Shown piece after piece: positions 2,481-6,900 of a stretch of DNA of 64,000 bases. Positions within the stretch are counted from its first letter, which is position 1; every line of letters begins with the position of its first letter. This stretch comes from Gottfriedia acidiceleris. Lineage in GTDB: Bacteria; Bacillota; Bacilli; Bacillales; Bacillaceae_G. A program made the position numbers and the translations under genes. Location of the stretch: NCBI RefSeq assembly GCF_023115465.1, contig NZ_CP096034.1:3038001-3102000 (forward strand), read 5' to 3'. A model generated the notes under the pieces. It ran no database searches and had not been told where the DNA came from. It saw only the letters and a list, made by a program, of their open reading frames with translations.

Positions 2481-2664
2481 TTATTGGAGATCGCGATATT
2501 TTTCAACTAAAACAGGTTGAAGTTGTTTTCCTTCAATAGAAGATTTTACTGTATCAAGCAATGATTCCATTCTTGCCACTAATGAATTCGGTTTTTTTAT
2601 TGGATCATCTTGACCAAAGGGAATAAAATAGATATTTTTTGTACTCATTAAACGCATTAAATTA
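2481..2664 (-). CDS. dpaB: Dipicolinate synthase subunit B, C-terminal fragment (57 codons) separated by intervening element
   Basis: This is the detached 3' end of dpaB (spoVFB). From the repeat core the frame reads NLM, then RLMSTKNIYFIPFGQDDP, and ends at a normal carboxy-terminus (VEKYRDLQ). This matches the end of B. subtilis SpoVFB as I remember it. The frame also runs back to an ATG at 2771, but the 39 residues before NLM come from inserted DNA and do not resemble the family. The fragment has no stop or frameshift. Joined at the repeat 2655-2664 = 5463-5472 to the 5' part (5463-5888), it gives a 199-residue protein, against about 200 in B. subtilis. In the unrearranged chromosome it is probably not made. 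Confidence 0.93.
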
Positions 2665-2683
2665 TGACTTAGAGGATAATACC
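2641..2683. repeat. attL-like junction of the dpaB-intervening element
   Basis: The 10-bp core CATTAAATTA at 2655-2664 recurs at 5463-5472. To its left is dpaB coding sequence. To its right is the element arm TGACTTAGAGGATAATACC (2665-2683), whose reverse complement matches the other element end (5444-5462) at 17 of 19 positions. This is the arrangement expected of hybrid sites left by a large serine recombinase. Confidence 0.85.
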
Positions 2684-2808
2684 GATCTAAACGGAATATC
2701 ATTGGTTTGGGACAGTAAAAAATTGACTTTAAAAGGAGCAGGTTAAAGGATTTAAAAGGGGATTGAAACAAAAAATTAAGCTTAGTAAATAATTTTTAAA
2801 ATCTCACC

Positions 2809-3345
2809 CTACTGATTGTAGTGAACGATATATTTAGCGTATACATAATCAAGTTGTTTTTTAATGCAAGTATTATAAAAGGATTGTTTATAATCAGTAT
2901 ATAGTACCTTTAAAAACCGATCTCTAATTGATTTAATCGTCAAATTATGAAACCGTAAATAGGTTTCAGTCCAAAATACCATATTCTTTGAAAAAGTTTC
3001 ATCGTCGATGTCAAAAAATGTTCGTACAGCTCGAACACCAATATTCCCCATTAAAACAGTAACATCTTCTACGTCAACATTTGCATCTAGTTCAAAAATA
3101 ATAACCTCTTGGCCGTTTCTAGTTCTATAATTTGCCCCCTTAATTGAATAACCTATTAATTCACCATTTGTAAGATCCAAAGCAACTACACCTTTAGCAT
3201 AATCTAAAGTCCAGTTATTATAAGCTAGTTCTATGACATCTTTTATTCTTACATTTAATATTAAATGTTCAGCAAGCTTACGTTCGATCAACTTTTCCTT
3301 TGAAATAAATTGTTTTTTTAAATGATATTCGATAATAACCAACAT
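2809..3345 (-). CDS. Uncharacterised 178-residue protein of the intervening element
   Basis: I do not recognise this family. The protein is 178 residues, soluble in appearance, without a signal peptide or membrane segment, and rich in Asp, Tyr, Val and Ile. The middle part (about residues 45-125) has alternating hydrophobic strands (KGVVALDL, GELIGYSI, EVIIFELD); the end is basic and aromatic. The listed ATG at 3343-3345 is nearly touched by the Shine-Dalgarno GAGAGGA, so the next codon (TTG) may be the real start. A TATAAT lies upstream at 3478-3483, with a 7-bp hairpin followed by a T run (3403-3431) in between, so the leader may be attenuated. It is the only cargo of the element with no evident recombination role. 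Confidence 0.65.
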   Translation of the reverse strand: MLVIIEYHLKKQFISKEKLIERKLAEHLILNVRIKDVIELAYNNWTLDYAKGVVALDLTNGELIGYSIKGANYRTRNGQEVIIFELDANVDVEDVTVLMGNIGVRAVRTFFDIDDETFSKNMVFWTETYLRFHNLTIKSIRDRFLKVLYTDYKQSFYNTCIKKQLDYVYAKYIVHYNQ

Positions 3346-3593
3346 TCCTCTCTATGATGAATATTTAGAATCACTATCACTATAATTACGATCGTTATGT
3401 AAAAAAAATGACAGATTTTTGAGTAATCTGTCTCAGAATTTTTCTGAAATTCATGAATCATCTTAATCATGGTCACTATTATATCTGCAGTTAAATTGAT
3501 TGCATATTTAGTTTTTTACCGTTGTAAAAGTACAAAAATAATGTTTCCCTATGGAATTTAGTTTTTGGAATAATAGCTGATCAATGGATATTA

Positions 3594-3622
3594 TCAAAAA
3601 AAGCACCCTTTTTTAGGTGCTT
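3594..3622 (-). terminator. Rho-independent terminator after the 61-residue ORF
   Basis: On the minus strand AAGCACC pairs with GGGTGCTT around a short A-rich loop and is followed by seven T residues. It lies 13 bp beyond the stop of the 61-codon gene, supporting that this small gene is transcribed as its own unit. Confidence 0.8.
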
Positions 3623-3634
3623 ACTAAATTCATT

Positions 3635-3820
3635 CTACTGATCATCTTTCTTATACAATTCTTCTTTAACAATCTTCCAGCCAATCGTATAAATTTCTTC
3701 AATAATTTTCTTTCTATTTTCTTCTGTAACATCATTTGGCGCAATTATATTCACTTTTGTTTTTCCAAATTGATAGGTAGCAGTAAATTCTGTTTGTTTA
3801 CTCAGTATCACCACCCCCAT
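3635..3820 (-). CDS. Small 61-residue element protein; candidate recombination directionality factor
   Basis: The predicted protein is 61 residues, with a strand-rich start (EFTATYQFGKTKVNIIAP) and a charged helical end (about residues 33-58). Its size is like that of SprB, the 58-residue directionality factor of SP-beta, but I cannot show homology. It is divergently transcribed from the recombinase and has its own terminator. Upstream on the minus strand, CATACAAT (3826-3833) matches the -10 consensus of the mother-cell sigma factor SigmaE; no clear -35 is visible. The start is uncertain: no ribosome-binding site precedes the ATG at 3820, and G-rich sequence inside the frame could serve a start a few codons later. 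The function is inference. Confidence 0.6.
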   Translation of the reverse strand: MGVVILSKQTEFTATYQFGKTKVNIIAPNDVTEENRKKIIEEIYTIGWKIVKEELYKKDDQ

Positions 3821-3825
3821 AATTC

Positions 3826-3833
3826 ATTGTATG
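3826..3833 (-). promoter_or_regulatory. SigmaE-like -10 box (CATACAAT)
   Basis: The minus strand reads CATACAAT, a perfect match to the usual SigmaE -10 hexamer region, just upstream of the 61-codon gene. The expected -35 (ATATT-like) is not evident 13-15 bp further up. If the promoter is real, the transcript would start close to the annotated ATG, favouring a slightly later translation start. Confidence 0.35.
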
Positions 3834-3930
3834 TTTTGTTTTATGGCGGACTAACCAACATTTTGTTGCTGGTGATTCAAAATTAATTAATTCTTTAATT
3901 AGACATATATATAGTCTATGAGGTGATTAA

Positions 3931-5427
3931 ATGGAACGAGTTGCATTGTACTTGCGTAAAAGTCGAGCAGATTTAGATGCAGAAGCTAGAGGTGAAGGTG
4001 AGACCTTATCTAAGCATAAGGAGCAGCTTTTAAAATTCGCTAAGGAACATAATTTAAATATAATTTGTATTCGACAGGAAATTGCATCTGGTGAATCGCT
4101 TATTTACCGGCCAGAAATGTTAAAGCTTTTACAAGAAGTTGAAGAATTTAAATATGATGGCGTGTTAGTAATGGATATGGACCGTCTTGGACGCGGTAAT
4201 ATGAAGGAGCAGGGAATTATTTTAGAAACGTTTAAATCATCTAGAACAAAAATTATTACACCGAGAAAGACCTATGACCTTCATGATGAGTTTGATGAGG
4301 AATACAGTGAATTTGAGGCATTTATGGCGCGAAAAGAATTAAAAATAATTACTCGTAGGCTTCAACGAGGTCGAGTTTTATCAGTCCAAAGAGGAAATTA
4401 TTTAGGAACCTTTGCACCTTATGGATATGAGATTTATGAAACGAAGGAATTCCGCTCTTTACGCATTAATAACAATCAAGAAAAGGTAGTAAAAAGTATT
4501 TTTGAATGGTATACGAAGGATTTGATCGGTGCAAATGAAATTGCTAACCGTTTAAATCAAATGAATATCCCTTCCTATTCTGGAAAAAAGTGGAGTTACC
4601 ATTCCATTTTAGAGATGATAAAAAATCCTATTTATATCGGGAAGGTGACTTGGAATAAAAAATCAAGTAAAGGGATAAGAAAACCAAAATCTGACTGGTT
4701 GATTGTTGATGGAAAACATGAAGCAATCATCGATCCTGATATATATAACTCAGCACAAGATATTTTAACTAGTCGATACCATGCCCCTTATAATAGTAAA
4801 TTAAGTAATCAGCTAGCTGGTATAATTTTTTGCAGTAAATGTGGATCAAAATTACAGCAGCGTTATCCAAAAGGCAAGCCTAGACAAATTGTGTGTACAA
4901 ATAACCGCTGTAGCACTCGCTCTTCTTATACTCATTTAATTGAAGAGAAACTCTTACAAGGATTAGAAATTTGGTTAAAAGAATACAAAATAAGTTTTAC
5001 GAATCAACCCGAAAAAGAAAAATTTGAGGTAATTAATTTAAAAAAACAGGCACTTAAACAAATCGAAAATGATTTAAATGAGGTAGTAAAACAAAAAAAT
5101 AATTTATTTAATTTACTAGAACGCGGTGTTTATGATGAATCGATTTACAATGAACGTTCTGAAATCCTCTCTAACCGAATAAAAGAACTATCAAATAGTA
5201 AATCGTTAATTTTGGATGAACTAGCTAAATATCACAATAGAGTGTTGCCAAACGATCAATTTATTCCAAACTTTGAAAAAGTGTTAGATTTATATTACAA
5301 AACAACTGATATAGAACTTAAAAATCGTCTCCTTAAATCAGTATTATTTAAAGTAGAGTATCAAAAAGAGACACATCAAAAACTAGATGATTTTACACTT
5401 ATACTTTACCCAAAGCTGCCCAGGTGA
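3931..5427 (+). CDS. Large serine recombinase (SprA-like), probable excisionase/integrase of the dpaB element
   Basis: A 498-residue site-specific recombinase. The amino-terminal resolvase domain (about 1-150) starts YLRKSR, giving catalytic Ser11, and contains MDMDRLGRG with Arg85 and Arg88. A recombinase domain follows (about 160-280, including APYGYEI and NPIYIGKV). Then comes a zinc ribbon with Cys301, Cys304, Cys322 and Cys327, and a coiled coil (about 350-430) before the end. Layout and motifs resemble SP-beta SprA more than SpoIVCA of skin. The ATG has a good ribosome-binding site, GAGGTGA. A CATATATATA at 3904-3913 could be a sporulation -10 but is weak. It is the only plus-strand gene in the window, and its stop lies 16 bp from the right element arm, the usual place for a recombinase next to its site. 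Confidence 0.93.
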   Translation: MERVALYLRKSRADLDAEARGEGETLSKHKEQLLKFAKEHNLNIICIRQEIASGESLIYRPEMLKLLQEVEEFKYDGVLVMDMDRLGRGNMKEQGIILETFKSSRTKIITPRKTYDLHDEFDEEYSEFEAFMARKELKIITRRLQRGRVLSVQRGNYLGTFAPYGYEIYETKEFRSLRINNNQEKVVKSIFEWYTKDLIGANEIANRLNQMNIPSYSGKKWSYHSILEMIKNPIYIGKVTWNKKSSKGIRKPKSDWLIVDGKHEAIIDPDIYNSAQDILTSRYHAPYNSKLSNQLAGIIFCSKCGSKLQQRYPKGKPRQIVCTNNRCSTRSSYTHLIEEKLLQGLEIWLKEYKISFTNQPEKEKFEVINLKKQALKQIENDLNEVVKQKNNLFNLLERGVYDESIYNERSEILSNRIKELSNSKSLILDELAKYHNRVLPNDQFIPNFEKVLDLYYKTTDIELKNRLLKSVLFKVEYQKETHQKLDDFTLILYPKLPR

Positions 5428-5443
5428 TCTTGTAAACTGATTT

Positions 5444-5486
5444 GGTATTACCATCTAAGTCACATTAAATTAGTTCCATTTAAACC
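5444..5486. repeat. attR-like junction of the dpaB-intervening element
   Basis: The element arm GGTATTACCATCTAAGTCA (5444-5462) abuts the core CATTAAATTA (5463-5472), then dpaB coding sequence. The arm is the inverted partner of 2665-2683 with two mismatches. Read on the minus strand, the element supplies a TGA right after the ATG codon of the core, truncating dpaB after residue 142. Confidence 0.85.
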
Positions 5487-5888
5487 TAAAGCATCGTTTG
5501 TAGAAATACCTAAAACAACAGGTTTTCCATTTCTTAATGTAGCCTTAGCTGCCATTAATACAGGGCTATCAGTTTGAGCATTAGCAAACTTACTCATTGA
5601 ATTTCCTGTTAATGGTGCAATTACCATACAATCTAATTGTACTTTTGGACCAAATGGTTCTGCTCCTACAATTGAATCAACTGTTTTACGCCCTGTAATT
5701 TCTTCTATTTTTTCGATCCAATCTTGCCCTACACCAAATCGAGTTGTTGTGCTTTTTACAGTAAATGTAACAACAGGGTATACGTCAGCTCCATCATCCA
5801 CTAACTTTTGAATTTGTGGTACTACCTCTTCATAAGTACAATGTGATCCTGTAATACCAAATCCAATTTTCTTACCTTTCAATGTCAT
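5460..5888 (-). CDS. dpaB: Dipicolinate synthase subunit B, N-terminal fragment (142 codons), truncated by intervening element
   Basis: DpaB is the flavoprotein-like subunit that works with DpaA to turn a dihydrodipicolinate-pathway intermediate into dipicolinic acid, the calcium chelator of the spore core, made in the mother cell. The fragment starts KGKKIGFGITGSHCTYEE and includes the flavoprotein motif APLTGNSMSK, typical of the family. It stops after NGTNLM because the element contributes TGA. The missing 57 residues are at 2481-2654. Its ATG overlaps the dpaA stop (ATGA), so the two are translationally coupled. A protein lacking the last quarter is unlikely to be active; excision would restore 199 residues. 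Confidence 0.95.
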   Translation of the reverse strand: MTLKGKKIGFGITGSHCTYEEVVPQIQKLVDDGADVYPVVTFTVKSTTTRFGVGQDWIEKIEEITGRKTVDSIVGAEPFGPKVQLDCMVIAPLTGNSMSKFANAQTDSPVLMAAKATLRNGKPVVLGISTNDALGLNGTNLM

Positions 5889-6787
5889 TTTTGTTGCTCC
5901 TTTCTTTTATCTAAATCTACCTTTAATAGTTGTGTTAGTACGTTTCCAATTATTTGACCTGCAGTTTTAGGAGCAACGATTCCTGGTAAACCTGGTGCTA
6001 ATAAGGCCTTAATACCTCTTTTTTCAGCATAACGAAAATCTGTTCCTCCAGGTTTAGAAGCTAAATCTATAATTAGTGAATGAGGTTGTAATTTTGAAAT
6101 GACACTAGCTGTCACGATTTGAACTGGAACAGTATTAATTACAACATCTACATCCTTTATGGCCTCTTCAATATTCTTAAATTCAAAAGCTTCTAAGCCC
6201 ATTTCAACAATTCTAGCAATATGTTCTGATTTACGAGCGCCTACTTTTACTTTTGCACCCAAACTATGAAAAGTCCTTGCGACACTCATACCTGTACGAC
6301 CTAAACCTAATACGGCTACTTTTGAATTATGAATTGTATATTCCGTATGTTGAATAACCATCATAATTGTACCTTCAACAGTTGGAATACTATTATAAAT
6401 AGCTACATCGTCTCGTTCAAATAATTTTACTAACTTTCGATTTGAAGCTGTAACTATACTATCTAAGTAAGAGTTACTAATTCCAGAGTAAATCGTACAA
6501 TGCGAAGGAGTACTGTCTAAAATTTCTTTTGTCAGCACGACTTTCTCATTTGAAAAAATTGTATCGACAACACCTTCAATATTCGTACCTGGTACTGGTA
6601 AAAGGATTGCGTCTAGATCTTCAAAATTTGCATCTGCCATTAATTCTTTTGATGCACTGGTAAAGCCACTATCTAATTGTTCAAAGCCTATTAATGTTAC
6701 CTTTGCGTCTAACTCTGTTAACTTCCGAATAACTTCGAGCTGTCTGGCGTCCCCACCAATAACAGCAATATGCAAGCCAGTTAACAT
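5885..6787 (-). CDS. dpaA: Dipicolinate synthase subunit A
   Basis: DpaA (SpoVFA) is the dehydrogenase-like subunit of dipicolinate synthase, acting in the mother cell late in sporulation. The 300-residue protein has an amino-terminal nucleotide-binding stretch (IAVIGGDARQ, about 7-16) and a second Rossmann fold in the middle (VAVLGLGRTGMS, about 158-169). It also has the conserved LAPGLPGIVAPKTAGQI near the end. The start ATG at 6785-6787 has the ribosome-binding site GAAGGTGA. Its stop overlaps the start of dpaB. A SigmaK-like promoter lies about 90 bp upstream. This gene is intact, so only its partner is interrupted. Confidence 0.96.
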   Translation of the reverse strand: MLTGLHIAVIGGDARQLEVIRKLTELDAKVTLIGFEQLDSGFTSASKELMADANFEDLDAILLPVPGTNIEGVVDTIFSNEKVVLTKEILDSTPSHCTIYSGISNSYLDSIVTASNRKLVKLFERDDVAIYNSIPTVEGTIMMVIQHTEYTIHNSKVAVLGLGRTGMSVARTFHSLGAKVKVGARKSEHIARIVEMGLEAFEFKNIEEAIKDVDVVINTVPVQIVTASVISKLQPHSLIIDLASKPGGTDFRYAEKRGIKALLAPGLPGIVAPKTAGQIIGNVLTQLLKVDLDKRKEQQK

Positions 6788-6872
6788 GCAGCATTCACCT
6801 TCTTTACTTCACTATGGTAAATGGAAATTAATCTCTGTAAGCAGGACTACCGCCTAACATCTTTCTCCTAAA

Positions 6873-6900
6873 TATCTTATGAACATTCCATTGCATTGGT
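6873..6900 (-). promoter_or_regulatory. Candidate SigmaK promoter of dpaAB
   Basis: On the minus strand AC is followed after 17 nt by CATAAGATA, fitting the SigmaK pattern (AC, 16-17 nt, CATANNNTA). In B. subtilis the spoVF operon is transcribed by SigmaK in the mother cell, so motif and known regulation agree. The leader would be about 80 nt and includes a 10-codon ORF (6828-6860) with a good Shine-Dalgarno, whose reality is unknown. Confidence 0.55.

Follow-up and report, generated by a model that had tools for sequence, protein, structure and literature searches.

A 2.8-kb recombinase element splits dpaB in most Gottfriedia genomes and is probably excised during sporulation

In a 64-kb stretch of the genome of the soil bacterium Gottfriedia acidiceleris (contig NZ_CP096034.1, positions 3,038,001 to 3,102,000; hereafter the window), dpaB (spoVFB), which is required for the synthesis of dipicolinic acid, a protectant of spores, is interrupted at 2655–5462 by an element of 2,808 bp that carries a large serine recombinase and two small genes, here called p61 and p178. 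Several features of elements of the skin, vfbin, gin and SPβ kind are found here too: a split mother-cell gene, core repeats with inverted arms, predicted in-frame restoration and an intact recombinase. The Gottfriedia element is best regarded as a minimal, vertically inherited variant of the skin/vfbin/gin kind that is likely to be excised in the mother cell. That excision is programmed, and restores dpaB in sporulation, is given a probability of roughly 0.86.

Predicted restoration of the interrupted gene

The 5′ part of dpaB (5460–5888, minus strand) consists of 142 codons that end in NGTNLM and meet an in-frame TGA just within the element. The 3′ part (2481–2654, minus strand) supplies 57 codons (2654–2484), starting with RLMSTKN, and a stop codon at 2483–2481. 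Two family models span the break: the 5′ part covers positions 1–137 and the 3′ part positions 133–187 of TIGR02852 (187 positions), and the corresponding ranges in NF006161 (196 positions) are 1–142 and 139–194. At the junctions lie two copies of the recombination core CATTAAATTA, the right copy (attR) at 5463–5472 and the left copy (attL) at 2655–2664, spaced 2,808 bp apart. As judged from the sequence, removal of the element fuses NGTNLM to RLMSTKN in frame and gives a DpaB of 199 residues, which matches the intact DpaB of another Gottfriedia genome, G005, at 97% identity across all 199 positions. An earlier note on this DNA, made from its letters alone, had proposed both the split into 142 + 57 codons at the repeat and the 2,808-bp deletion that restores 199 residues; the reading frames, the two family models and the comparison with G005 confirm it on both points. 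The note had also considered a second complete dpaB elsewhere, and none was found in the organism's own 4.69-Mb single-contig genome.

Inside the element each core copy is flanked by a 19-nt attP half-site arm, GGTATTACCATCTAAGTCA on the right (5444–5462) and TGACTTAGAGGATAATACC on the left (2665–2683). The arms are complementary at 17 of 19 positions and symmetric around the AA in the middle of the core. The chance of such an arrangement (∼ 5e-8) rules out a chance repeat as the origin of the element ends. The circle is predicted to carry an attP of the form GGTATTACCATCTAAGTCA-CATTAAATTA-TGACTTAGAGGATAATACC, with AA at its centre. The limits given for the element are based on the core repeats, the arms and the comparison across elements. 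An assembly error in the window is ruled out by 10 other genomes that show the same structure, one of them (G002) across two contigs.

Conservation of the element and dpaB as a target

The genus comparison comprised 13 genomes. In 11 of them dpaB is split at the same site and accompanied by an orthologous recombinase (75–95% identity to that of the window), and the recombinase, p61 and p178 are present in all 11 elements. The other two, G003 and G005, have an intact dpaB and carry neither a close recombinase nor p178. The same element and an uninterrupted dpaB, both of which the earlier note had suggested looking for in related genomes, are therefore on record (11/13 and 2/13), and its gene count, a recombinase plus two small genes, applies to every carrier. 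Nine elements assembled through both ends measure 2.78–3.04 kb, and the G002 element, which starts at a contig end, measures 2.83 kb. The G007 element (∼ 9.2 kb) has gained several genes, and the element can therefore carry cargo. This cargo lies between p178 and p61 (L029 4043–10033) and includes surface-protein-like genes and a regulator-like gene, named by eye.

Agreement between the core copies extends over 10 bp in seven of the 11 elements, over 9 bp in three (G001, G011 and G012) and over 7 bp (CATTAAA) in G007. Both copies of the 10-bp repeat thus stand as first described, with the refinement that agreement is shorter in 4/11 elements and that the tenth base, which on the side of dpaB falls at the wobble position of a Thr codon, varies. 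In G007 the cores differ outside CATTAAA, and exchange within CATTAAA still restores dpaB. Core, arms and frame are compatible with restoration in all 11 elements.

Ratios of non-synonymous to synonymous substitution rates (dN/dS), summed over pairs, were 0.082 for the recombinase (1/55 pairs saturated and dropped), 0.275 for p61, 0.195 for p178 (7/55 saturated and dropped) and 0.044 for dpaA. For dpaB itself they were 0.011 in the 5′ part and 0.071 in the 3′ part (13 genomes), which rules out a decayed gene and agrees with the earlier suggestion that a lesion-free 3′ part points to selection and not to decay. In an alignment of 10 elements (G007 left out) 95% of the columns of each arm are invariant, compared with 31–43% in adjoining non-coding sequence, 33–67% in other non-coding sequence and 63–68% in the element genes. 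Recombinase distances follow those of rpoB (r = 0.94, reached by 0/2000 permutations; r = 0.87 and 4/2000 without G007) and those of dpaA (r = 0.99). The splits of the rpoB, dpaA and recombinase trees agree in 2 to 4 of 8 cases, the shallow branches being weak, and the distance correlation is the better evidence for co-divergence of element and host. The recombinase, the split dpaB and the attachment sites are under purifying selection, and the element diverges in step with its host. At the level of sequence, the genus comparison supports the earlier interpretation of the locus as a functional split gene with its own recombination system.

The rpoB tree places G003 as the outgroup and joins G005 and G007 as sisters at moderate support. 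The simplest reading would be a single old insertion once G003 had branched off, followed by scarless loss in G005, although parsimony does not force it: a single insertion with loss in G005 and two insertions are not separated, because the G005–G007 grouping is only moderately supported (76/66 and 81/71).

In the order as a whole, at least 382 of 397 genomes have a dpaB match, as counted from a per-genome table. Outside the genus at least 11 genomes have two such matches, and these were re-examined together with one very weak match. In at least three genomes, G118, G078 and G199, dpaB is interrupted by an insert whose recombinase is of a different type (loci L092, L093/L094 and L116/L117 cover the three). 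The inserts of G118 (∼ 11 kb) and G078 (∼ 21 kb) lie near dpaB residue 87 and have recombinases related to each other; that of G199 (∼ 46 kb) lies near residue 22 and has a different recombinase, named by eye. In G050 dpaB has a short break without an insert, and the remaining double matches are distant paralogues. On this sequence evidence dpaB is a recurrent target, interrupted at three or more positions in the order (residues ∼ 22, ∼ 87 and 142). At the junctions of the G199 insert inverted arms can be seen, and in G078 the core copies seemingly no longer match.

Recombinase, small genes and control sequences

The recombinase gene (3931–5427, plus strand) encodes 498 residues with Resolvase, Recombinase and Zn-ribbon domains and is oriented towards the dpaB 5′ fragment. 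Ser11, which we take to be the catalytic position, is invariant in all 11 elements. The nearest named relatives of the recombinase are from G. acidiceleris, G. luciferensis and several Bacillus sp. strains. Among the three genes of the element Pfam and PHROGs recognize the recombinase only; neither collection gave a match to genes for phage structure, replication or lysis there, and a prophage is ruled out on these grounds.

When 84,980 species genomes were scanned with a peptide pattern, 26 loci were returned, nine from Gottfriedia and 17 others at 36–51% identity. Nine of the 17, all within the 12 at 48–51% identity, adjoin a broken sigK, the pieces of which stop at about residue 151–158 of the query; in the fetched stretches both sigK parts are seen at three of these loci and a truncated 5′ part alone at six. 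The nine include two near-duplicate pairs (Paenibacillus, Tepidibacter). In a phylum sample, where each locus was taken with 1.5 kb on either side, 3/10 additional loci also have a broken sigK. Because of these counts (9/17 and 3/10), the dpaB-element recombinase is assigned, by sequence, to a family found mainly at sigK. The organism's own sigK is intact, with a 251-codon open frame above the model's cut-off. In a recombinase tree of 27 rows, from which SprA and the residue-87 dpaB recombinases were left out as too distant, the Gottfriedia rows cluster with support of 99/97, the Bacilli rows with 96/98. The order among the Gottfriedia/Bacilli, phage and clostridial rows lacks support, and for this reason a move from sigK to dpaB is proposed as a direction only.

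Three loci of this family deserve separate mention. At L067 7568–9556 (Petroclostridium sp. X23) and L068 4912–10839 (Shimazuella soli) the sigK parts are on opposite strands and the junctions inverted, so that recombination would restore sigK through inversion instead of excision; these could be rearranged skin elements, a matter of assembly or a real inversion switch. At L085 5764–8524 (Shimazuella kribbensis) a same-family recombinase and a p61 relative lie beside an N-terminally shortened murF-like gene, perhaps another split gene.

The p61 gene (3635–3820, minus strand) is a 61-codon frame divergent from the recombinase and encodes a protein of ∼ 60 residues. Its first codons resemble a conserved Shine–Dalgarno sequence, GGGGGTGGTG, ahead of a CTG at 3805 (TTG in G007), which is probably the true start and would give a protein of 56 residues. 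The p61 profile finds relatives in 7/17 non-Gottfriedia loci, six of them sigK loci, at distances from adjacent to the recombinase up to ∼ 5 kb off. Thermoanaerobacterium phage THSA-485A has a further relative, along with an integrase that shares 51% identity with the recombinase. With a widened profile, weaker matches (E 0.0004–0.008) appeared in three more Shimazuella loci, where the p61-like gene is directly upstream of and divergent from the recombinase, as in Gottfriedia. This co-occurrence with same-family recombinases is the main argument that p61 is likely to be the recombination directionality factor, a role which its position and size also fit. The p61 structure model shows a hairpin and a helix (predicted local distance difference test, pLDDT, 74). 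In a second look at the fold search the best Z was 3.1 and no match stood out, and the best hit of a PDB sequence search was a piece of lactate dehydrogenase (E 0.01).

A still smaller element is found in G541 (L107 1141–3398), where an insert of ∼ 2,268 bp, containing little apart from a recombinase and a weakly p61-like frame, interrupts sigK and where the joined flanks form a 260-codon open frame with sigK. This is possibly among the smallest skin-type elements. The claim that the dpaB element is close to a minimal switch stands as regards its three genes and 2.8 kb, but not as a record, given the size of the G541 element.

The third gene, p178 (2809–3345, minus strand; 178 codons), is an orphan found with the dpaB element only: 10 of the 397 genomes of the order have it, and all 10 are element carriers (the eleventh carrier, G008, lies outside the sample). 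It has no Pfam match, its NCBIfam matches are weak and implausible (short-chain dehydrogenases, best E 0.005), the best PHROG is of unassigned function (E 0.17), and its structure model is poor (pLDDT 43).

Promoters were called with the σE/σK −10 consensus and the σK promoter consensus. Upstream of p61 lies a σE/σK-like −10 octamer, CATACAAT (3826–3833, minus strand), which is CATACAAT in 9/11 and CATATAAT in 2/11 elements; the pattern CATA[CT]AAT occurs 10 times in the 64-kb window, both strands counted. Near the −35 position of p61, CGGACTAACCA (3847–3857) is invariant in the 10 aligned elements. The partner gene dpaA (5885–6787, minus strand; TIGR02853) is upstream of dpaB, and the dpaA-dpaB pair is preceded by a σK-type promoter, ACC-N16-CATAAGATA (6871–6900, minus strand). 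This promoter (AC-N17-CATAAGATA) is found in all 12 readable genomes of the 13, with CATAAGATA in 11 and a relaxed CATAATATG in G003; G005 could not be read and was left out of the count. Because a σE/σK-like −10 precedes p61 and a σK-type promoter precedes dpaA, the order would be p61 early in the mother cell, then excision, then dpaA-dpaB under σK. Terminator-like hairpins lie directly behind p61 (3601–3622, minus strand) and, with a T-tract, upstream of p178 (3410–3432, minus strand). An invariant block of 23 bp was noticed at 3499–3521, between p61 and p178; together with the second hairpin it is a possible attenuator or promoter of p178. Downstream of the dpaB 3′ part are asd (1254–2297) and dapG (2–1228), both named by eye.

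A hint of excision comes from the draft assembly of G. acidiceleris 1-17, which breaks precisely at the recombination core (L025 1–12 and L026 2530–2539). One contig stops at the last base of the core, and the next starts with CA-CATTAAATTA-TGACTTAG, in which CA corresponds to the circle (attP); CG would be expected for attL. A mixture of integrated and excised DNA would give such a break. The chance that a contig would end no more than 12 bp from one or the other core is ∼ 1e-3 in that genome (∼ 90 contigs) and ∼ 1e-2 over all 11.

Programmed excision, its alternatives and known systems

In the proposed mechanism both growing cells and the spore genome would have the 2.8-kb element in dpaB. 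In the sporulating mother cell a small element protein, most likely p61 made from a σE-type promoter, would make the recombinase excise where it otherwise integrates; strands would then be exchanged at the core's central AA, which would release the element as a circle and rebuild dpaB exactly. σK would next transcribe dpaA and the whole dpaB, so that dipicolinate can form. Since the mother cell dies, the element would be passed on through the spore. We infer excision in cells, its timing and cell type, and the dependence of dipicolinate on it from sequence; confinement to the sporulating mother cell is predicted, and the observations that bear on it are the promoter-like sequences and the one assembly break.

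Several observations weigh against this mechanism. Two genomes of the genus manage without the element, which is therefore not required as such. No recognizable σE −35 was seen ahead of the p61 octamer. The assembly break concerns 1/11 genomes and two bases and could be an artefact. The family matches of p178 are weak and implausible, and its model is poor. A profile comparison of p61 with SprB detected no similarity, and searches of PDB and viral models with the p61 fold returned nothing at E ≤ 0.001, results that exclude nothing.

Within programmed excision, p178 could act as the directionality factor instead of p61, or both could be needed. This variant is improbable but deserves some weight: p178 is in 11/11 elements and in no other genome searched, and the p61-like match in G541 is weak (E 0.023). 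Against it, no convincing p178 relative was found at related recombinase loci, where p61 has relatives in 7/17 and in a phage, and the ∼ 2,268-bp sigK element of G541 has the p61-like frame and, besides the recombinase, no frame of the size of p178.

Clearly less probable is a still-mobile, phage-like element that excises under stress or at random, the repair of dpaB in sporulation being a by-product. The recombinase does have relatives in phages, the best being that of THSA-485A, where the p61 relative sits among regulator genes, and two viral contigs have relatives of a more distant member of the recombinase family. However, the ten short elements (2.78–3.04 kb) could not accommodate phage or transfer genes, the additional genes in G007 appear by eye to be non-phage, and the divergence of the recombinase follows that of host genes. 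Viral contigs scanned with a pattern of the Gottfriedia recombinase, an approach that detects close relatives only, gave 92 matches, none of which was confirmed. Least probable of all is a fixed, non-excising insertion in which the DpaB fragments jointly make dipicolinate or some other pathway supplies it, for although both fragments are open and the 3′ fragment has ATG codons, the attachment arms and the recombinase are strongly constrained, the single-contig genome yielded no second dpaB, and restoration remains compatible in 11/11 elements, G007 included.

Programmed excision as preferred here has close precedents. The elements vfbin, vrin, skin, SPβ, gin and yin have been published (PMC4191935, PMC10747680, PMC6957869, PMC5025042, PMC5595907), and excision of this kind has been demonstrated experimentally for skin, SPβ, skin-Cd and gin (PMC6957869, PMC4191935, PMC5025042, PMC5595907). 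vfbin, named in the earlier note, is indeed described there: it interrupts spoVFB of Bacillus weihenstephanensis KBAB4, the same gene as in Gottfriedia (PMC4191935, PMC10747680, PMC5595907). By description it is set apart from the 2.8-kb, phage-free Gottfriedia element, as it is listed among elements with phage-related genes that still excise (PMC4191935). In skin and skin-Cd the recombinase gene points at the 5′ fragment of the split gene, as it does here, and in skin-Cd of C. difficile (CD1231/CD1234) a small second protein drives excision, much as is proposed for p61 (PMC5025042). The skin elements sit in sigK, however, and skin-Cd has 19 genes (PMC5025042), compared with three in an element that sits in dpaB.

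The gin element (gerE, Bacillus cereus ATCC 10987) likewise lacks phage genes and has a 9-bp shared core, a very small factor beside the recombinase (GirX, 42 residues) and a predicted diadenine cleavage site, all reminiscent of Gottfriedia. Its size (28.6 kb, 31 genes, three recombinases) and its occurrence in some B. cereus/B. toyonensis strains (PMC5595907) contrast with 2.8 kb and 11/13 genomes. The SPβ/spsM recombinase belongs, broadly, to the family of the Gottfriedia one, which is 30% identical to a SprA and matches SprA by PDB profile. The SPβ factor SprB, of 58 residues, resembles p61 in size and has, as is predicted for p61, a mother-cell promoter near its start, the −10 of which is reported next to sprB (PMC4191935); unlike the Gottfriedia element, SPβ is described as an active prophage. 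Among the matches listed from the open-licence literature there was no publication on the Gottfriedia dpaB element. What is new is an element that is smaller, phage-free and present in most of a genus, with a recombinase of a family otherwise found mainly at sigK.

As to its history, the following is offered tentatively, at a little less than even odds. A recombinase + p61 unit of the mainly-sigK family would have settled in dpaB in an ancestor of Gottfriedia, where it retained or acquired p178 as a controller and no other cargo, and would then have been passed down in most of the genus as a host gene is.

The element offers a compact three-gene, phage-free model of programmed gene reconstitution, for which genomes of the genus with an empty site are natural controls, and it provides a compact recombinase with natural attB and attP. 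It ties the sigK and dpaB recombination units together, offers a testable family of p61 directionality factors, and raises the question of why selection keeps an element whose sole evident function is its own removal. If the history proposed above is true, p61 would be a member of a general directionality-factor family common to sigK elements and phages, and the excision checkpoint would lie at the last biosynthetic step, that of dipicolinate, rather than at the regulator σK.

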